From assembly GCF_001517975.1 (NCBI RefSeq), contig NZ_KQ950184.1, forward strand, positions 74,703-138,702: DNA of 64,000 bases, written 5' to 3'. Below, one piece after another: positions 14,565 to 44,198 of the stretch (positions are counted from its first letter, which is position 1; every line of letters starts with the position of its first letter). The notes below the pieces were generated by a model. It saw only the letters and a program-made list of their open reading frames with translations. It did not search any database and was not told the DNA's origin. The position numbers and the translations under genes are program-made. This DNA comes from Thermobifida cellulosilytica TB100 (GTDB taxonomy: Bacteria; Actinomycetota; Actinomycetes; Streptosporangiales; Streptosporangiaceae).

Positions 14565-14637
14565 GGGGCTATGGCGCAGTTGGTAGCGCGCTTCCATGGC
14601 ATGGAAGAGGTCTGGGGTTCGAATCCCCATAGCTCCA
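14565..14637 (+). tRNA. tRNA-Ala (GGC)
   Basis: A 73-nt cloverleaf. The acceptor stem GGGGCTA/TAGCTCC includes the G3-U70 wobble that identifies alanine tRNAs. The D arm is GCGC/GCGC, the anticodon stem CTTCC/GGAAG has loop ATGGCAT (anticodon GGC, reading GCC codons), and the T arm is TGGGG-TTCGAAT-CCCCA. CCA is not encoded. Identical to the copy at 15006. Confidence 0.98.
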
Positions 14638-14646
14638 CCGGAAAGA

Positions 14647-14674
14647 AACCGCCCCGCCAGCAGGCGGGGCGGTT
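14647..14674 (+). terminator. Terminator after the first tRNA-Ala
   Basis: AACCGCCCCGCC and GGCGGGGCGGTT form a perfect 12-bp stem around AGCA, followed by CTGTGTT, starting 10 nt past the tRNA. Confidence 0.8.
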
Positions 14675-15005
14675 CTGTGTTCACGGCCTGTTGCTGCCCG
14701 CGGGGACCGGAAGGCGCCGGGAGGCCCGCAGACCGGTGCCGATCCGGGACGGCCGCACGGCGCCGCCTCTGGTCGGGAACCGGCGCACACCCCGGACGGC
14801 ACGGCGGTCGGCCCTCCCCCTCCGACGACCGGTGCGCTGCGGTGGGAACCGCGGCGGCCCCGCCGGGGGAGCCGACGGCGTCAGAAAGCGTTTTCATGGG
14901 TTTGCGGTGGAGATCGGTGCACCGGACGGCGGCCCCCTGACGCCCCGGCCGGGGCGGGATGTACGGAGCACCCCCCAAGATCCGGTAGAGTTGTTCCTGC
15001 CGCAA
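14675..15005. other. Spacer between the tRNA-Ala genes
   Basis: 331 bp with no credible gene. A GGTAGAGTT element at ~14983-14991 could be the -10 region of the second tRNA gene. Nothing else was recognised. Confidence 0.4.
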
Positions 15006-15078
15006 GGGGCTATGGCGCAGTTGGTAGCGCGCTTCCATGGCATGGAAGAGGTCTGGGGTTCGAATCCCCATAGCTCCA
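15006..15078 (+). tRNA. tRNA-Ala (GGC), second copy
   Basis: Identical over all 73 nt to the gene at 14565-14637, including the G3-U70 pair and GGC anticodon. It starts 441 bp downstream of the first copy, but the flanks differ, and it has its own promoter-like and terminator sequences. Confidence 0.98.
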
Positions 15079-15083
15079 CGCCG

Positions 15084-35868: not shown

Positions 35869-36330
35869 GTGCGCTGCCCCTTCTGCCAGAACCAGGACAC
35901 CCGGGTGATCGACAGCCGCGCCGCAGAGGAGGGGGCCGCGATCCGGCGCCGCCGCTCCTGCCCGGCCTGCGAGAGGAGATTCACCACCCAGGAGACCGTG
36001 CTGCTCATGGTCGCCAAGCGGTCGGGCGTCACCGAGCCCTTCTCCCGCAGCAAGATCATCGCTGGAGTCCGACGGGCCTGCCAGGGCCGCCCGGTCAGCG
36101 AGGACGCCCTCGCCCTCCTCGGCCAGCGGGTCGAGGAGACCATCCGCGCCCGCGGGGCCGCCGAGGTCCCCTCCCACGAGATCGGGCTCGCCATCCTCGG
36201 GCCGCTGCGCGACCTGGACGAGGTCGCCTACCTGCGCTTCGCGAGCGTCTACCGCAGCTTCGAGTCCCTGGAGGACTTCGAGAACGAGATCGCGGAGCTG
36301 AGAGCGGAGCGTGCCGCGCCGCAGGACTGA
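35869..36330 (+). CDS. nrdR: Ribonucleotide reductase repressor NrdR
   Basis: 153 residues from GTG 35869 (GAAGGAAGAGG upstream). The N-terminal zinc ribbon has CPFCQNQDT and [10 protein letters not shown]. The ATP-cone that senses ATP/dATP spans ~45-135 ([24 protein letters not shown]...[12 protein letters not shown]). It represses ribonucleotide reductase genes when dNTPs are sufficient. The next gene is nrdJ, and a candidate NrdR box lies upstream. Confidence 0.97.
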
Positions 36331-36454
36331 CCCACCCGACGCCCCACAGCGTCCAGCAGACCAGAGAACACGCACGGTGCCGCCGTGCCGCGACGGGACC
36401 GGGCGGCAGGCACCGACCGGGTACACCTCTTCACAGATGGGGGAGCAAAGCGAC

Positions 36455-39271
36455 ATGACCGAGACGGCGAGCGGCTCTGCTACACGCAAGGGCAGGAAAG
36501 CCCGGGGAGGACTGAAGATCCGGCGGGTCTTCACCACTCCCGGAGTCCACCCCTACGACACCGTGGAGTGGGAACGCCGCGACGTCGTCATGACCAACTG
36601 GCGGGACGGCTCGATCAACTTCCAGCAGAACGGGGTCGAGTTCCCCAAGAGCTGGTCGATGAACGCCACCCAGATCGTGGCCAGCAAGTACTTCCGCGGC
36701 GCGCTGGGCACCCCGCAGCGCGAGTGGAGCCTCAAGCAGCTCGTCGACCGGGTCGTCAACACCTACACCGCGACCGGCCGCGAGCACGGCTACTTCGCCT
36801 CCGACGAGGACGCCGAGATCTTCGACCACGAGCTCAAGTACGCCCTCGTCCACCAGATGTTCAGCTTCAACTCCCCGGTCTGGTTCAACGTCGGCACCTC
36901 GTCGAAGGCCCAGGTCTCCGCCTGCTTCATCCTGTCGGTCGAGGACACCATGGAGTCGATCCTCGACTGGTACAAGGAGGAGGGGGTCATCTTCAAGGGC
37001 GGCTCGGGCGCGGGCGTGAACCTCTCGCGCATCCGCTCCAGCAAGGAGCTGCTCTCCTCCGGCGGCACCGCCTCCGGCCCGGTCTCCTTCATGCGCGGCG
37101 CCGACGCCTCCGCCGGGACGATCAAGTCCGGCGGCGCGACCCGGCGGGCCGCCAAGATGGTCGTCCTCGACGTGGACCACCCCGACATCGAGGAGTTCAT
37201 CGAGTGCAAGGCCCGTGAGGAGCACAAGATCCGCGCGCTGCGCGACGCGGGCTTCGACGTCGACCTGGGCGGCGCCGACATCGTCAGCATCCAGTACCAG
37301 AACGCCAACAACTCGGTGCGCGTCTCCGACGAGTTCATGCGGGCCGTGGAGCAGGACGCCGAGTTCGGCCTAGTCGCCCGCACCACCGGCGAGGTCATCG
37401 AGAAGGTCAAGGCCAAGGAGCTGTTCCGCAAGATGGCCCGGGCCGCCTGGGAGTGCGCCGACCCGGGCATCCAGTACGACGACACCATCAACGACTGGCA
37501 CACCACGCCCGAGAGCGGCCGGATCACCGCCAGCAACCCCTGCTCGGAGTACGTCCACCTGGACAACTCCTCCTGCAACCTGGCCTCCATCAACCTGATG
37601 AAGTTCCTCGACGACGACGGCTCCTTCCGCGTCGAGGAGTTCGAGCGGCTCGTCGAGCTGGTCATCACGGCGATGGACATCTCCATCACCTTCGCCGACT
37701 TCCCCACCGAGAAGATCGCCGAGACCACGCGGGCCTTCCGCCAACTGGGCATCGGCTACACCAACCTCGGCGCGCTGCTGATGGCCACCGGCCACGCCTA
37801 CGACTCCGACGGCGGACGCGCCGTGGCCGCCGCCATCACCTCGCTCATGACCGGCGCCGCCTACCGGCGCAGCGCCGAGCTGGCCGGGGTGGTCGGCGCC
37901 TACGACGGCTACGCCAAGAACGCCGAGTCCCACAAGCGCGTCATGCGCAAGCACGCCGCCGCCAACGACGCCCTCAAGACCGTCGGCGAGCTGGAGAAGC
38001 CGATCCACGCCGCCGCCACCCGGGCGTGGCGGGAGTGCCTGGAGATCGGCGAGAAGAACGGCTGGCGCAACGCCCAGGCGAGCCTGCTCGCGCCGACCGG
38101 CACCATCTCCTTCATGCTGGACTGCGACACCACCGGCATCGAGCCCGACTTCTCCCTGGTCAAGTTCAAGAAGCTGGTGGGCGGCGGGTCCATGCAGATC
38201 GTCAACCAGGGCATCCCCCGGGCGCTGCGGACCCTCGGCTACCAGGAGGAGCAGATCGAGGCCATCGTCGCCTACGTCGCCGAGCACGGGCACGTGGTCG
38301 ACGCGCCCGGTCTCAAGCCCGAGCACTACGAGATCTTCGACTGCGCCACGGGGCGGCGCTACATCCGGCCCATGGGGCACGTGGACATGATGGCGGCGGT
38401 CCAGCCGTTCCTGTCCGGCGCGGTCTCCAAGACCGTCAACGTCCCGGAGGAGGCCACCGTCGAGGACTTCGAGCGCCTCTACTACGAGGGCTGGAAGAAG
38501 GGCCTCAAGGCGCTGGCGGTCTACCGGGACAACTGCAAGGTCGGCCAGCCGCTGTCCACCGCCAAGAAGGAGGAGAAGGAGAAGGCCGAGCAGGCCCCCC
38601 GCACCGTCGAGGTGCGGCGCCCGGTGCGGCGCAGGCTGCCCAAGCGGCGTCCCAGCCAGACCGTCTCCTTCACCGTCGGCGGAGCCGAGGGCTACATCAC
38701 CGCGGGCTCCTACCCCGACGACGGCCTGGGCGAGGTGTTCCTCAAGCTCGGCAAGCAGGGCTCCACCCTGGCCGGGATCATGGACGCCTTCTCCATCGCG
38801 ATCTCCATCGCCCTCCAGTACGGGGTGCCGCTGGAGACCTACGTGGAGAAGTTCACCAACATGCGCTTCGAGCCGGCCGGGATGACCGACGACCCCGACA
38901 TCCGGATGGCGCAGTCGGTGGTGGACTACATCTTCCGCCGTCTGGCCCTGGACTACCTGCCCTACGAGGAGCGCGCGGCGCTGGGCGTGCTCTCCGCCGA
39001 GGAGCGCGCCGCCCAGGCCGCCGGGGAGGACCCCGCGCAGGTCGCCGCCCAGGTGGTCACCTACGCCCAGTCGGCGCCGGTGGCCGAGGCGGGCGACCCG
39101 CTGCTCGAGGCTCCCCGGACCACCGGGGTCCGCGGGACGGTGGAGGCGGCCGAGGCCCGGCAGGGCTTCAGCGCCGACGCCCCGCTCTGCGTGAGCTGCG
39201 GCACCAAGATGCGGCCGTCCGGGAGCTGCTACGTCTGCGAGGGCTGCGGCTCCACCAGCGGTTGCAGTTGA
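36455..39271 (+). CDS. nrdJ: Adenosylcobalamin-dependent (class II) ribonucleotide reductase
   Basis: 938 residues; ATG 36455 (MTETASGS) follows GGGGGAG at ~10 nt. It converts ribonucleotides to deoxyribonucleotides using a B12-generated radical, so it needs no oxygen. Seen features are FSFNSPVWFNVGT, FKGGSGAGVNLS, the active-site region NPCSEYVHLDNSSCNLASINL and APTGTISFMLDCDTTGIEPDFS. An NrdJ-type C-terminal tail, CVSCGTKMRPSGSCYVCEGCGS, carries the CxxC pairs that shuttle electrons. A basic insert (VRRPVRRRLPKRRPSQT) precedes the last domain. It is in an operon with nrdR (125 bp apart). Confidence 0.97.
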   Translation: MTETASGSATRKGRKARGGLKIRRVFTTPGVHPYDTVEWERRDVVMTNWRDGSINFQQNGVEFPKSWSMNATQIVASKYFRGALGTPQREWSLKQLVDRVVNTYTATGREHGYFASDEDAEIFDHELKYALVHQMFSFNSPVWFNVGTSSKAQVSACFILSVEDTMESILDWYKEEGVIFKGGSGAGVNLSRIRSSKELLSSGGTASGPVSFMRGADASAGTIKSGGATRRAAKMVVLDVDHPDIEEFIECKAREEHKIRALRDAGFDVDLGGADIVSIQYQNANNSVRVSDEFMRAVEQDAEFGLVARTTGEVIEKVKAKELFRKMARAAWECADPGIQYDDTINDWHTTPESGRITASNPCSEYVHLDNSSCNLASINLMKFLDDDGSFRVEEFERLVELVITAMDISITFADFPTEKIAETTRAFRQLGIGYTNLGALLMATGHAYDSDGGRAVAAAITSLMTGAAYRRSAELAGVVGAYDGYAKNAESHKRVMRKHAAANDALKTVGELEKPIHAAATRAWRECLEIGEKNGWRNAQASLLAPTGTISFMLDCDTTGIEPDFSLVKFKKLVGGGSMQIVNQGIPRALRTLGYQEEQIEAIVAYVAEHGHVVDAPGLKPEHYEIFDCATGRRYIRPMGHVDMMAAVQPFLSGAVSKTVNVPEEATVEDFERLYYEGWKKGLKALAVYRDNCKVGQPLSTAKKEEKEKAEQAPRTVEVRRPVRRRLPKRRPSQTVSFTVGGAEGYITAGSYPDDGLGEVFLKLGKQGSTLAGIMDAFSIAISIALQYGVPLETYVEKFTNMRFEPAGMTDDPDIRMAQSVVDYIFRRLALDYLPYEERAALGVLSAEERAAQAAGEDPAQVAAQVVTYAQSAPVAEAGDPLLEAPRTTGVRGTVEAAEARQGFSADAPLCVSCGTKMRPSGSCYVCEGCGSTSGCS

Positions 39272-39396: not shown

Positions 39397-39819
39397 GTGA
39401 GAGTTGACTCGATGGACACTGAACACGGCACCCCCTCGGAGGTGTCCGCCGAACTCGTCAGAGCTCTGCGGTCGGGGCAGGTCGACCCTCTCACGGTGAT
39501 CACCGCGCTCCACGACAGCGGGAAGCTCCCCCACCGCGGGGAGACGGCACGGTGGCACGTCGGAGAGCGGGGGCGCTTCTCCTCCGGCTCCGCAAGCCGG
39601 ACCCGCAAGATCAGCATCTCCATGCCGGAGGACCTCAGCTCCGCCGTCCACGAACGCGTCGGACGCGGCGAGTTCAGCCGCTACGTGACCGAGGCGGTCA
39701 GCCGACAGTTGGAACTGGACCTGCTGGCCGAACTCGCCGACCTGCTGGAGAACGAGTACGGGCCGGTCTCCGAACAGAGCCTGGCGGAGGCGGAGGCGGC
39801 GTGGCCGGACGCCGACTGA
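39397..39819 (+). CDS. VapB-like ribbon-helix-helix antitoxin
   Basis: 140 residues. The RHH domain is ~68-105 (TRKISISMPEDLSSAVHERVGRGEFSRYVTEAVSRQLELDLLAEL), which binds operator DNA as a dimer. The acidic C-terminus (LENEYGPVSEQSLAEAEAAWPDAD) is the usual toxin-neutralising part. An N-terminal ~60-residue extension (VSAELVRALRSGQVDPLTVITALHD) is uncommon. The start is GTG 39397 (leaderless) or ATG 39412. The toxin gene overlaps its last 19 bases. Confidence 0.8.
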   Translation: MRVDSMDTEHGTPSEVSAELVRALRSGQVDPLTVITALHDSGKLPHRGETARWHVGERGRFSSGSASRTRKISISMPEDLSSAVHERVGRGEFSRYVTEAVSRQLELDLLAELADLLENEYGPVSEQSLAEAEAAWPDAD

Positions 39820-40235
39820 CCGGAGGAGGCACCCTCGTCCTCGACAGCGAGGGCCTGTCCAAGATCGCGGACGGCGACGAACGCGCACGGGCGCACCTGG
39901 AGGTCGCCCACCGCCGCCGGGCCCGTGTGGTGGTCAGCGCGGTCACCCTCGCGGAGGTGCTCCGCGGCGGCCCCCGGGACGCCGCGATCCACCGCGTGCT
40001 CTCCCGGATCTCGGTGCTCGCGGTCACCCCCGAGATCGCCCGCGGCGCCGGTGAGCTGCTGGGGAGGACCGGCCTGACCGGCCACCGCTGCGCGATCGAC
40101 TCGGTGGTGGCGGTGACCGCGCTCGGCCAGGAACGCCCGGTGGTGCTGCTGACCAGCGACCCCGACGACCTCAGCCGGCTCGTCGAGGAGCCGGACCGGC
40201 CCAAGCACCAGCGGGTCGCCGTGGTCCACGTATGA
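39801..40235 (+). CDS. PIN-domain toxin (VapC-like ribonuclease)
   Basis: 144 residues from GTG 39801, with GGAGGCGGC upstream. The PIN fold has VLDSEGLSKI (D near 16), SAVTLAEVLRGGPRD (E), IARGAGELLGRTGLTGHRCAIDSVVAVTAL (D) and LLTSDPDDLSRL (D), so the metal-binding acid set appears complete. VapC toxins cleave tRNA or rRNA and halt translation until the antitoxin is restored. It overlaps the antitoxin gene, as is typical of such pairs. Confidence 0.83.
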   Translation: MAGRRLTGGGTLVLDSEGLSKIADGDERARAHLEVAHRRRARVVVSAVTLAEVLRGGPRDAAIHRVLSRISVLAVTPEIARGAGELLGRTGLTGHRCAIDSVVAVTALGQERPVVLLTSDPDDLSRLVEEPDRPKHQRVAVVHV

Positions 40236-40386
40236 ACGTCCGCGGCCGGATCGGAGGGCGTCGGCGCCGCGTGCCCCGGCGCACGCCCCCGCAGCGGACC
40301 GCGATGCCGTTATCGGACCGTCGTTCCACCGCGCCCCGGTGGACCGCAACCCCGCGGCAGGATTGCGACCCCGCAGGCAGCACAGT

Positions 40387-40412
40387 GGAACCGTCGAAAG
40401 GTGTATTACGTC
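40387..40412 (+). promoter_or_regulatory. Candidate ECF-sigma promoter for the SPFH operon
   Basis: GGAAC (40387-40391), 17-nt spacer, CGTC (40409-40412) matches the extracytoplasmic-function sigma pattern. It is 42 bp before the first SPFH start and ahead of a good Shine-Dalgarno (AAAGGAG). Envelope-stress control is an inference. Confidence 0.45.
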
Positions 40413-40454
40413 CGAAAACACACCCCCCCAACTGAGCGAAAGGAGCCCTCGCCC

Positions 40455-42059
40455 ATGTCCTTCGCGCAAACAGTGCGCGGAGCCGCGAGCGCGATAGCCC
40501 AAGGGGCTGATCCGCGCACGGCGCTCGGCGACGCTGTCAACCGGGCAGCGGACCAGTTCGGACTCGATCCAGGCGACTTCCTGGCGGCACGCGACCACGG
40601 CGCCTCCGTGGGCACCCGGATCGAACAGCAGACCACCTCGCTGGCCAACGCGGGGGAGGCCCTCAACCGCAGCAGGTACGAGCCCGGCCCCGAAGGCCCG
40701 GTCCACGTCATCTGCCCGATGGTGATCCCGCGCGGTCGCACCGCGGGCGCGATGCTGCCCGTGATCCTGCTCGCCGTGCTCGGTCTCGTGGGCACCCTGC
40801 TCACCCTGGCCGTCCCGGGCGCCACCATGGTCTTCTTCGGCCCGCACTACTGGCTGCTGGTCGTCGCCATCGGCGCCTTCGGCTGGTGGCGCCAGGGCAT
40901 GGTCATGGTCCCCGACGGCTGTGTGGCGCTGATCAGCAAGTTCGGAAAGCTGGAGCAGGTCGTCGGCCCTGGCCGGGTCACCCTGTTCAACCCGTGGAAG
41001 CGCGTCTCCTACATCGTCAACACGACCCGGGAGTACCCCTTCAACGCCCCGATCCGCGAGGCCCCCACCAAGAGCGGCGTCAAGGCGTCGGTCGACCTGT
41101 TCCTCCAGTTCCGCATCGAGGACCCCGTCGAGTTCGTCTTCACCCTGGGCGCGGTCCAGGGCTTCCAGGACAAGCTCAACAACGCCATCAGCGAGACCAC
41201 CCGCAGCCTCATCTACGAGCAGCAGGCCGCGGAGATCTACGACCTGGTCGGCGAGAACACCGCCCGCCTGCTGGACCAGCTCAACCAGCAGTTCCTGCCC
41301 GCGGTGCGGCTGACCAACGCCAACATCACCCACGCCGAGCCGTCCAGCCAGGAGTACCGCATGGACCTGGCCGCCCCCGAGATGGTGCGGGTGGCCAAGG
41401 AGGCGTACACCTACGAGTACCAGCTCCAACTGCGCAAGGAGCAGAACGAGGGCGATCTCAACAAGGAGCTCGCCTCCCTCAACGAGACCCTCTCCGCGAT
41501 CCAGGCCGAGATCGCGCAGTACCAGGCACAGATGGACACCGCCCTGGAGCGGGAGACCAACCGGGCCCGCGCCCTGGCCCGCCAGCGGTTCGTCGAGGCC
41601 GAGAGCGCCGCCCAGGCCAACGCGGCACTGCTGGAGGCCCAGGCCCTGGACATCCGCGCGGTCAGCGCGGCCGAGGCGCCCGAGATCCTCAACTACCGCT
41701 TCCAGCAGGACCTGCTGGACAAGCTGGAGGCGGTCGCCGACAGCCTGCCGCAACTGGTGCAGATCGGGGACGGCGACGCCGCCATCGACTTCCTCCAGGT
41801 GGCCCAGCAGCTCATCGGCGGCGCCGACCAGGTGCTCTTCTCCGACGAGGACATCGCGGCCATCCGCGAGCGCCTCTCCGAGATCGAGGAGCGCATCGCC
41901 GCCCGCGAACCCGAGATCGCCGCGCTCCTGGGTGAGAGGGCCTCCGCCCCCGTCGCCGGGGAGGCCGTGGCGGAGGCCGGACAGGCCGCGGAGGGCGACC
42001 TGCCCGGTGCCGGGCCGAACACGGACCAGTCCGAGCTCTACCAGCGGGGAGGCCAGTGA
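40455..42059 (+). CDS. SPFH/band-7 membrane protein 1
   Basis: 534 residues. Two transmembrane segments lie at ~97-140 (MLPVILLAVLGLVGTLLTLAVPGAT and YWLLVVAIGAFGWW). The SPFH domain follows (GCVALISKFGKLEQVVGPGRVTLFNPWKRVSYIV, then TKSGVKASVDLFLQFRIEDPVEF...LNNAISETTRSLI). A long coiled coil spans ~310-400 (EYQLQLRKEQNEGDLNKELASLNETLSAIQAEIAQYQ). The C-terminal acidic region is Ala/Glu-rich. SPFH proteins form ring-like or cage-like scaffolds that organise membrane domains and protease quality control. The stop overlaps the next start region, so both are translated together. Confidence 0.88.
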   Translation: MSFAQTVRGAASAIAQGADPRTALGDAVNRAADQFGLDPGDFLAARDHGASVGTRIEQQTTSLANAGEALNRSRYEPGPEGPVHVICPMVIPRGRTAGAMLPVILLAVLGLVGTLLTLAVPGATMVFFGPHYWLLVVAIGAFGWWRQGMVMVPDGCVALISKFGKLEQVVGPGRVTLFNPWKRVSYIVNTTREYPFNAPIREAPTKSGVKASVDLFLQFRIEDPVEFVFTLGAVQGFQDKLNNAISETTRSLIYEQQAAEIYDLVGENTARLLDQLNQQFLPAVRLTNANITHAEPSSQEYRMDLAAPEMVRVAKEAYTYEYQLQLRKEQNEGDLNKELASLNETLSAIQAEIAQYQAQMDTALERETNRARALARQRFVEAESAAQANAALLEAQALDIRAVSAAEAPEILNYRFQQDLLDKLEAVADSLPQLVQIGDGDAAIDFLQVAQQLIGGADQVLFSDEDIAAIRERLSEIEERIAAREPEIAALLGERASAPVAGEAVAEAGQAAEGDLPGAGPNTDQSELYQRGGQ

Positions 42060-43429
42060 TGAGCCAACCGACCGGCCGCGGCAACTCCACCATCCGGGAG
42101 TCGCTCGCCTCCTGGGGCGACATCGCCCGCCTGCTGCGCGGCGGCGACCAGGGTGCCCTGGTCCCCGTCGTCATCCCCCGCGACAGCCGGGGACTGAAGT
42201 GGATGACCCTGGTGTGGGTCGGCCTCTACCTGATCCTGACGGCGCTCGTGTCGGCGGTGGCCGTCGGCGGAGTGGTCGGGACCGTCATCGCGGTTCCCGC
42301 CCTGTTCTTCGGGGTCGTCTCGGTGGTGCTCGCCCTGCTGTGGTGGTGGCGCTCCTCCATCGTGGAGATCGAGCAGGGCACCACCGGCGTGCTCACCAGG
42401 TTCGGGGCCATCGTCGCCGAACTGGGGCCGGGCCGCCACTACCTGTGGCACCCCTGGACCCGGGTCGACTTCGTCGTGGACACCTCCACCGAGATCCCCT
42501 ACAACGCGCCCGTGCTCGCCTGCCCCACCCAGGAGAACGTGCCGCTCAAGTCGATCGAGTTCTTCCTGAAGTTCCGCATCACCAACGCGGTCGCGTTCGT
42601 GCGCACCATCGGCGCCAGCAACTTCGACCTGGTGCTGTCCAACGCGGTGCAGGACGCCATCCGCCAGCGCAGCCGCCGGGTGCAGACCGAGAACGCCTAC
42701 GACCTGCGCGGCTCCGACGTGGCGGACATGCAGGAGCTGCTGAACCACCAGCTCAGCCGGTACGGCGTGCAGATCATGGGGTGCAACATCCCCGACGTGC
42801 AACTGCCCAACCAGTACCAGCAGCACCTGTCCACCCGGGAGCGGGTCGCCAAGGAGCTGATCGCCTACGAGCAGGAGTGGGAGCTGACCCGCAAGCGCCG
42901 TATCGACACGCTCCTGATGGACATCGAGCGTTCCAAGAAGGCCCGGGACGCCAAGATCGTCGAGGTCAAGGCGGCGCTGAACCGGGCGCGCAAGGACGTC
43001 GCGCAGATGCTGGAGGAACAGGAGACCGAGGCGCAGCGCGTGCGCTACGAGATCGAGACGCGCGGCCGCACCAACCTGGTGGCGGCCGTCAACGAGGCCA
43101 CCGCCCAGCGGCGGCTGGCCACCGCCTACCGGGACAACCGCGCGATGCTCCGCTACGAGCTGGCCCGCCGCCGCCTGGACGTGGGGGCCAAACTCGCCGA
43201 GCAGGCGCCCAAGCCGGTGGTGGTGCGCACCGACTCCGCGTCGGGGGACACCTCGGCGCTGTCCACGCTCCTGCTCGCCCAGCTCCTGCCGGGAATCGCC
43301 GACAACCGCCGACCGCGCGGCCTGGGCGGGTCCTCGCCGGTCGCGGCGGCCGGAGAGGCGGACCCGTTGCAGCAGGTGCAGGGCGCGGCCGCCGAAGCGG
43401 CCCGGCTGCGGGAGCAGTGGCAGGTCTGA
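42059..43429 (+). CDS. SPFH/band-7 membrane protein 2
   Basis: 456 residues, ATG 42059 with GGAGG six nt upstream, overlapping the previous stop. Two transmembrane helices lie at ~50-100 (MTLVWVGLYLILTALVSAVAVGGVVGTVIAVPALFFGVVSVVLALLWW). The SPFH domain is SIVEIEQGTTGVLTRFGAIVAELGPGRHYLWHPWTRVDFVVD, with VPLKSIEFFLKFRITNAVAF after it. A charged coiled coil is ~280-385 (KRRIDTLLMDIERSKKARDAKIVEVKAALNRARKDVAQMLEEQETEAQRVR). Its order of elements parallels protein 1, suggesting the two are paralogs that may co-assemble. No signal or enzyme domain. Confidence 0.88.
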   Translation: MSQPTGRGNSTIRESLASWGDIARLLRGGDQGALVPVVIPRDSRGLKWMTLVWVGLYLILTALVSAVAVGGVVGTVIAVPALFFGVVSVVLALLWWWRSSIVEIEQGTTGVLTRFGAIVAELGPGRHYLWHPWTRVDFVVDTSTEIPYNAPVLACPTQENVPLKSIEFFLKFRITNAVAFVRTIGASNFDLVLSNAVQDAIRQRSRRVQTENAYDLRGSDVADMQELLNHQLSRYGVQIMGCNIPDVQLPNQYQQHLSTRERVAKELIAYEQEWELTRKRRIDTLLMDIERSKKARDAKIVEVKAALNRARKDVAQMLEEQETEAQRVRYEIETRGRTNLVAAVNEATAQRRLATAYRDNRAMLRYELARRRLDVGAKLAEQAPKPVVVRTDSASGDTSALSTLLLAQLLPGIADNRRPRGLGGSSPVAAAGEADPLQQVQGAAAEAARLREQWQV

Positions 43430-43450
43430 CCGACTCCGGCAGACAACGGC

Positions 43451-43480
43451 AGGGGGGCCGTCCCGACGGACGGCCCCCCT
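43451..43480. terminator. Bidirectional terminator after the SPFH operon
   Basis: AGGGGGGCCGTCC (43451-43463) and GGACGGCCCCCCT (43468-43480) form a perfect 13-bp stem with a 4-nt loop, between convergent genes. Confidence 0.75.
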
Positions 43481-43508
43481 GGTCACGTCGCGGCCCGCTC
43501 GCGGCGGA

Positions 43509-44198
43509 TCAGTAGTCGGTCCAGGAGTACCAGTTGCCCTTGACGTGCTCGTAGACCACGTTGCCGTGGCCGGGGAGGAACACGTCGGTTTCCAGTGCCT
43601 TGGGGCTGTAGGCCAGCCCCGACTTCTTGAGGAGCCCGGCCCCCTCCACCGTGAACAGCGTCACGCCCTCACGCTCGCTGACCTCGCTGATGGGGTAGAA
43701 GCCCGTCCACCGCTCCTCGGGCAGGACCACCCCGGAGGAACCGGTGGTCTCCCGCAGGTGCAGCAGGTCGGCGGCCGACGCGTCGACCCGGGCCTGCAAC
43801 GGGACGTCGGCCAGGGACAGCGCGACGGCCGCGAGCGCGATCAGCGGCGGAGTGATCCAGCGCAGCCAGTAGTAGCGGATCATGGGCCGGGCCACGGTCA
43901 TCGCGATGCCCAGGCGCAGCGCTCCCATGGTGGCGAGGACCGCGCCCCCGCCCAGACCGAGGACGAAGCTGGTCAGGTGGCCGCCGGGAACGCTGTCCTC
44001 GTACAGCAGCACCAGCGCGACGATGACGCAACTGGGCAGGTAGAGCTTGCCCGGAGGGCGGGAGGCCCAGGAGATGAGCCGCTGCGCGAGAGTGGGTCTG
44101 GGTGCGATGGAGATCAGTTTGGCGACCGATTCCTCCCCGGTCCCTGGCTGTCCACCCTGCGGTGCGGGTCCGGTGGGCTCGGGAATGGCGGCGGACAT
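43509..44198 (-). CDS. Hypothetical membrane protein
   Basis: About 229 residues. Four hydrophobic segments are seen: YLPSCVIVALVLLY, LTSFVLGLGGGAVLATMGALRLGIAM, and a pair around WITPPLIALAAVALSLADVPL. An extracytoplasmic C-terminal domain follows with VDASAADLLHLRETTGSSGVVLP and ending NVVYEHVKGNWYSWTDY. The start at 44198 (MSAAIPEP) lacks a Shine-Dalgarno; GTG 44255 is an alternative giving a longer N-terminus. It faces the SPFH operon, so a partnership is possible but unproven. No family recognised. Confidence 0.65.
   Translation of the reverse strand: MSAAIPEPTGPAPQGGQPGTGEESVAKLISIAPRPTLAQRLISWASRPPGKLYLPSCVIVALVLLYEDSVPGGHLTSFVLGLGGGAVLATMGALRLGIAMTVARPMIRYYWLRWITPPLIALAAVALSLADVPLQARVDASAADLLHLRETTGSSGVVLPEERWTGFYPISEVSEREGVTLFTVEGAGLLKKSGLAYSPKALETDVFLPGHGNVVYEHVKGNWYSWTDY

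Follow-up and report, generated by a model that had tools for sequence, protein, structure and literature searches.

Organization of the locus

We analyzed a stretch of 64,000 nucleotides of Thermobifida cellulosilytica TB100 (NCBI RefSeq assembly GCF_001517975.1, contig NZ_KQ950184.1, positions 74,703 to 138,702 of the forward strand), called here the window, and in particular two neighbouring genes, A and B, which code for SPFH/Band_7 proteins and are preceded by a promoter motif of the extracytoplasmic function (ECF) type. Coordinates, in window numbering, are collected in Table 1. The two open reading frames (ORFs) have one base in common, at a TGATG junction, and 42 nt separate the promoter motif (GGAAC at 40387-40391, CGTC at 40409-40412) from the start codon of A. 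A prediction made beforehand from the letters of the stretch (the original prediction) had described two SPFH/band-7 ORFs overlapping by one base, with a common domain order, two transmembrane (TM) helices and a long coiled coil each, and all of this is borne out. Both proteins lie above the curated PF01145 cut-off of 23.6 bits in the Pfam search, and the AlphaFold2 models and hydropathy give each of them the N-terminal membrane segment, SPFH domain and C-terminal coiled coil of the SPFH/Band_7 family.

Table 1. Features of the A/B locus in window coordinates.
Feature	Position	Strand	Evidence
ECF-type promoter GGAACC-N16-CGTC (= GGAAC-N17-CGTC)	40387..40412	+	-35 40387-40392, -10 40409-40412; sequence, conservation
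Shine-Dalgarno-like AAGGAG of gene A	40440..40445	+	sequence; 9 nt before ATG 40455
Gene A, SPFH/Band_7 protein, 534 amino acids	40455..42059	+	ATG to stop; Band_7 match, AlphaFold2 model
A TM hairpin (residues 97-148), both ends predicted cytoplasmic	40743..40898	+	AlphaFold2 helices 97-119, 130-148; flank K/R over 132 sequences
A Band_7 domain (residues 151-315)	40905..41399	+	PF01145 56.1 bits; fold matches
A coiled-coil stave, to start of C-terminal strand (residues 296-432, 137 residues)	41340..41750	+	length conservation
Shine-Dalgarno-like GGGGAGG of gene B, within 3' end of A	42046..42052	+	sequence
Gene B, SPFH/Band_7 protein, 456 amino acids	42059..43429	+	ATG 42059 to stop; Band_7 match, AlphaFold2 model
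B TM hairpin (residues 47-99), both ends predicted cytoplasmic	42197..42355	+	AlphaFold2 helices 47-68, 72-99; flank charges
B Band_7 domain (residues 103-267)	42365..42859	+	PF01145 82.6 bits; fold matches
B coiled-coil stave, to start of C-terminal strand (residues 250-384, 135 residues)	42806..43210	+	length conservation
GC-rich hairpin between convergent B and P0003, possibly shared transcription stop	43450..43481		folding energy
P0003, facing/convergent gene	43509..44198	-	ORF; two hydrophobic stretches past hydropathy threshold

Sequence and structural relationships of A and B

A and B are 29% identical over 382 columns (BLASTP). The T. cellulosilytica genome contains six Band_7 matches, A and B included, and these two are each other's closest relatives, with 132 bits against at most 27 bits to the other Band_7 proteins. 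Given this difference, they most likely derive from one old duplication. Orthologs of A are about 60-90% identical.

The AlphaFold2 single-chain models (predicted local distance difference test, pLDDT, 72.3 for A and 69.7 for B) have the same order of elements in both proteins: TM hairpin, SPFH domain and a very long helix (residues 299-407 of A, 251-381 of B). Chains of HflK/C, prohibitin, erlin, stomatin, QmcA and flotillin occupy the top Foldseek ranks for both (A to 9cz2_XA, E 1.4e-12; B to 7vhq_E, E 2.0e-10). With VIA-align, B was matched to prohibitin 8rrh_A (Z 12.7, root mean square deviation 3.2, 214 aligned) and A to stomatin 4fvj_B (Z 12.6, deviation 2.4, 113 aligned). Sequence identity to the prohibitin, erlin and flotillin-type chains amounts to about 7-18%. 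Many of the longer structural matches show a large deviation, probably caused by a differently bent helix. VIA-align rows outside the SPFH family (ribosomal proteins for A, vault chains) were set aside as weaker or distant resemblances.

Conservation of the pair across genomes

The distribution of the pair was examined at several taxonomic levels. Within the order, 97 of 150 genomes match B; 96 of them do so strongly (E 2e-171 or better), each with at least one second match in the genome, adjacency being seen for the listed or fetched loci, and one genome (G004) has a single weak B match. At the level of the class 40 of 394 genomes match B at E 1e-50, and at that of the phylum 24 of 396 do so at 1e-40, 21 of these coming from a single family (f60) of another class. 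Among the 80 matches listed of 334, carriers include Thermobifida, Nocardiopsis, Streptomonospora, Spongiactinospora, some Streptomyces, Janibacter, Ornithinimicrobium and Luteipulveratus.

Of 140 loci fetched, 139 have the two genes in one orientation with A preceding B; at the remaining one (L128) the contig ends before A. B without A was never seen in the checked loci, that is, in the 96 strong-B genomes of the order and the 140 fetched loci. With start codons picked by script, the A-B junction measures -30 to 0 nt in 126 of the 139 loci, 1-30 nt in eight and more than 30 nt in five. These loci are partly redundant, several genomes being present in both collections (131 distinct B among 139). 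Two of the five longest junctions, L062 and L119, are one Nocardiopsis halophila contig present in two collections, in which A stops early, 205 nt before B, by a frameshift or a sequencing error.

The genes flanking the pair vary between lineages, which makes the pair itself the conserved unit. A conserved upstream partner gene is ruled out, since the genes before the pair differ from one lineage to another; by eye, we take some of these lineage-specific genes to be ornithine-cyclodeaminase-like, MFS-like, DctA-like and CBS-domain genes. Of the checks proposed with the original prediction, the hidden Markov model search confirms Band_7 and the neighbourhood comparison the A-B adjacency.

Stave length and membrane topology

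Lengths of the protein segments were compared over 132 sequences, namely 131 distinct pairs and the pair of the window. The coiled-coil segment that links the SPFH domain with the C-terminal strand, called here the stave, is 137 residues long in 129 of the 130 A sequences in which it could be measured (156 in the exception; two were unmeasurable), and 135 residues long in all 132 B sequences. SPFH domain lengths are nearly constant in both proteins. The TM hairpins vary, mostly between 50 and 59 residues in A and between 47 and 64 in B, and the contrast between fixed and variable segments rests on these hairpins, many N-terminus and tail lengths being unmeasurable as the A sequences began at the BLAST match. 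A wall built of two kinds of staves needs equal and constant lengths; the constant and nearly equal staves are for this reason the best support that the sequences offer for one mixed A/B dome.

Charges around the hairpins were counted over the same 132 sequences. The mean number of K/R before the hairpin, in its loop and after it is 2.0, 0.1 and 1.3 in A and 3.3, 0.1 and 1.2 in B; the corresponding means for D/E are 0.0, 0.4 and 0.0 in A and 0.8, 0.8 and 1.0 in B. Basic residues thus flank each hairpin on either side and are almost absent from the loops, which predicts a cytoplasmic location for the two ends of each hairpin and, with them, for the SPFH domain.

A promoter maintained in one lineage

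We searched for GGAAC-N15..18-CGTY up to 300 bp upstream of A. Of the 99 regions compared, which are those of 98 loci and of the window and include some genomes twice, 60 contain the motif; 1.84 would be expected from shuffles. The motif accompanies the pair in 57 of the 58 loci of the Nocardiopsis/Thermobifida syntenic block (the exception is L100; the window, which has the motif, is outside this count) and in two of the 79 loci outside it (L135, L138). The strict ECF pattern was not found at the Streptomyces, Streptosporangiaceae-type, Janibacter and second-class (f60) loci. The spacer is 17 nt in all 59 proximal cases, and pairs of the 46 distinct spacers are on average 42% identical, with 35% upstream of the motif and 49% downstream. 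This distribution, together with the fixed spacing and the diverged spacers, strongly supports a promoter maintained in the Nocardiopsis/Thermobifida lineage and not a general trait of the pair. The ECF promoter originally predicted is thus present and conserved, within that lineage. A promoter scan of 40236-43520 found no sigma-70 promoter.

On the scale of whole genomes, GGAACC-N16-CGTC has 28 matches in T. cellulosilytica against 9 for the reversed control, and 41 against 20 (G107) and 54 against 15 (G024) in two other genomes. The sites of these three genomes and of T. fusca were compared by reciprocal best matches, since single-linkage clustering had merged unrelated genes. The comparison covered most sites: 51 stretches for G024 (54 matches), 36 for G107 (41), 28 for T. 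fusca (26) and 30 for T. cellulosilytica (28), some stretches having two motifs. Four sites are common to the four genomes, namely the SPFH pair, a Ser/Thr kinase, mIHF and an ECF sigma/anti-sigma site, the names being those of the T. cellulosilytica copies; the mIHF gene is what we take it to be from its sequence in that genome. The motif before mIHF has an identical 16-base spacer in the four genomes (L175, L199, L200, L258), which suggests an additional constraint such as another regulator or an RNA feature; because of this common spacer, the conservation of the mIHF site may have another cause.

The sigma gene of T. cellulosilytica scores 290.7 bits on the NCBIfam SigM equivalog (cut-off 190) and its neighbours are thioredoxin, thioredoxin reductase, murJ, ParB and a ParA-like gene. 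The motif falls within the 3'-terminal part of sigM, and 29 nt separate it from the start of the anti-sigma gene (L167, L377:4400-5026). Counterparts of this site in the three other genomes were matched through the stretch that follows it, with 65-113 bits. The SigM consensus of Mycobacterium tuberculosis is GGAAC-N16-18-CGTCR. Judged from the sequences, the link between the promoter of the pair and SigM is a good but not an exclusive one. Promoters of the same architecture, e.g. that of sco2055, belong to sigmaE of S. coelicolor in the available text of PMC6767563, and the words SPFH and flotillin are absent from the main text of that paper. The position of the motif inside sigM, before its anti-sigma gene, makes negative feedback possible.

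Comparison with known SPFH systems

The FloT/YuaG (SPFH2) and FloA/YqfA (SPFH5) proteins of B. subtilis resemble the pair as SPFH proteins under an ECF sigma factor, sigmaW (available text of PMC3498285). Operons of the floT/floA type carry an NfeD-type partner, according to the available text of PMC2636767; the pair differs from them by its two SPFH genes and by having no NfeD neighbour found. The stomatins and QmcA-type p-stomatins with NfeD (SPFH1) share the SPFH fold and a cytoplasm-facing hydrophilic part (PMC2636767, available text) with what is predicted for A and B, whereas the separate Band_7/NfeD locus of T. cellulosilytica itself is hardly similar to A and B (at most 27 bits).

The absence of FtsH and NfeD, noted in the original prediction, is true of the neighbourhood and not of the genome. 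Neither the FtsH peptidase domain nor the NfeD of T. cellulosilytica has a match in the 140 loci, the 60-residue NfeD query being a weak probe. Elsewhere the genome encodes one FtsH-type peptidase and has a single NfeD match (C5:4649-4828), beside another Band_7 gene. The A/B operon, in which no NfeD gene was matched, does not qualify as an SPFH-NfeD operon (SPFH1, SPFH2, SPFH5).

Prohibitin 1/2, Erlin 1/2 and Flotillin 1/2 are like A and B in consisting of paralogous subunits, which form one complex there and are proposed to do so here, and in their high structural scores; they differ in being eukaryotic, with other membranes and clients and low sequence identity. SPFH gene duplication inside operons has been described, so that paired SPFH genes as such are known (PMC2636767, available text); the word Thermobifida is absent from the main text of that paper (Hinderhofer et al. 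2009). In the literature on SPFH with actinobacteria, Streptomyces, ECF sigma factors and HflK/C cages, the titles and abstract openings listed do not name the pair, and SPFH with Thermobifida gave one paper, which in its available text treats another locus. The building block is therefore of a known kind, and we found no description of this particular pair.

Interpretation

The explanation that we favour, and hold to be probable, is that A and B form one hetero-oligomeric, cytoplasm-facing SPFH dome acting as a scaffold for a patch of membrane, and that in Thermobifida and Nocardiopsis it stands under an envelope-stress ECF sigma factor, most likely of the SigM type. A and B would be partner subunits anchored by their TM hairpins, with the ring and the coiled-coil wall facing the cytoplasm. 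Translational coupling would keep their amounts balanced, and their staves, being equally long, would converge at a common C-terminal cap. In the two genera the operon would be transcribed by SigM or a sigma factor of the same specificity; upon membrane stress the dome would be built and would enclose or organise a membrane patch and its proteins. A role in envelope stress is the leading reading because of the parallel with the sigmaW set of B. subtilis. The single hetero-oligomer, already proposed in the original prediction, gains indirect support from co-occurrence, conserved coupling, fixed near-equal staves and mutual closest paralogy.

Several observations weigh against this explanation. 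That A and B distances correlate (r = 0.91) is equally expected from shared descent, and a constant coiled-coil length would by itself equally fit two homomeric domes. The single-chain models are of middling confidence. Past the second helix of B acidic residues nearly offset basic ones (0.99 against 1.21). As regards regulation, the motif is hardly enriched in T. fusca (26 against 23 for the reversed control); the gene after sigM scores 51 bits on the anti-sigma model, whose cut-off is 100; and the sigM site of the three further genomes was matched by similarity, the sigma gene itself not being named there. With 38 Sigma70_r4_2 matches in the genome, SigM is not singled out, because the motif resembles several ECF consensus sequences. 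Finally, the motif is missing in 77 of the 79 loci outside the block, and ECF control is for this reason not the core of the function of the pair.

A first alternative, compatible with the single mixed dome, is that the dome serves as a docking platform for Spo0M, an adaptor which we take to have an arrestin fold, encoded behind the pair in one group of genera and in trans in the others. We regard it as rather unlikely, though not negligible. In 27 loci (L067-L069, L074, L147, L151, L152, L326-L345), B is followed after 32-310 bp by a Spo0M-like gene of the same orientation; these comprise 3/3 of Spongiactinospora, 4/4 of genera g4, g6 and g16, and 20/20 selected loci, the last chosen for a B identity of about 70%. 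In T. cellulosilytica two Spo0M genes are located elsewhere. In the available text of PMC3498285, floT, floA and spo0M all belong to the sigmaW regulon of B. subtilis, with log2 effects in a sigW mutant of -4.92 for spo0M, -2.33 for yuaG/floT and -2.11 for yqfA. The other 113 of the 140 stretches have no Spo0M match, among them L070, from another family of the order, and L153, from a Streptosporangiales metagenome-assembled genome. Adjacency in related genera may be explained as one event kept by descent, and we found no literature naming SPFH and Spo0M together.

That each protein builds a homo-oligomeric dome of its own, with its own clients, and that the two are merely co-expressed, seems unlikely to us. 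The low identity of the two proteins, the extra N-terminal part of A before its hairpin and the existence of homo-oligomeric SPFH entries (stomatin, Erlin2) speak for it. Mere co-expression, on the other hand, would need neither the co-occurrence, nor the coupled junction, nor the matched invariant staves, and a solitary B was never met in the checked loci.

HflK/HflC (SPFH3) are, as is proposed for A and B, two partner SPFH subunits with a long coiled-coil wall; HflK/C has a single TM helix, unlike the two-helix hairpins predicted here. That the pair takes over the function of HflK/C from the cytoplasmic side and modulates the FtsH encoded elsewhere in the genome is quite improbable: in the PDB profile search A matched HflK chains and no others (best E 1.3e-4) and the genome does have an FtsH-type peptidase, yet A and B reach only 20.6 and 21.9 bits on the NCBIfam hflK equivalog, far under its cut-off of 159.4, HflK/C faces the periplasm (PMC2636767, available text), opposite to the predicted orientation of A and B, and no FtsH gene lies nearby in the 140 loci.

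If A and B indeed share one dome, the pair could, more tentatively, represent a distinct and ancient actinobacterial SPFH system: a two-subunit cytoplasm-facing dome with fixed staves and no NfeD partner, rewired in some lineages to SigM-type ECF control and in others to a joint locus with Spo0M, and a membrane-protecting counterpart of the Bacillus sigmaW set (FloT, FloA, Spo0M). It would extend to actinobacteria the connection between SPFH domes and envelope stress seen in Bacillus, and the association suggested in some genera would give the poorly understood Spo0M a membrane partner. The pair offers a clean test case, with two genes, one promoter, a candidate sigma factor that can be named, and cultivable bacteria such as T. 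fusca.

Flanking genes and other features

The facing membrane protein P0003, described in the original prediction as uncharacterised and with a putative extracytoplasmic domain, is not supported as a part of the system. Of 59 block loci, the window among them, 57 have a member of its family, against none of 42 other contexts, so that it is confined to one syntenic block; Pfam and NCBIfam gave no match for it up to E 1, and between it and B stands a strong hairpin. Being convergent and lineage-bound, P0003 was ruled out as an operon partner and looks like a mere syntenic neighbour. The region 43440-43500 folds with -39.7 kcal/mol (z -4.0; none of 200 shuffles as stable). As the hairpin has no T tract, it is not listed by the terminator scan.

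A defence or phage origin was also rejected: there is no PADLOC match and no phage record with B, and the sole record in the plasmid collection is an 11.85 Mb Nonomuraea replicon. Directly before the pair lies a PIN-domain gene (Pfam; 39397-40235) which overlaps a small upstream ORF, possibly as a toxin-antitoxin pair. Further upstream, a class II (B12-dependent) ribonucleotide reductase (36311-39271) forms part of the syntenic block of the Nocardiopsis relatives. At 14565-15079 of the window are two tRNA-Ala genes, both with a GGC anticodon and about 370 bp apart.

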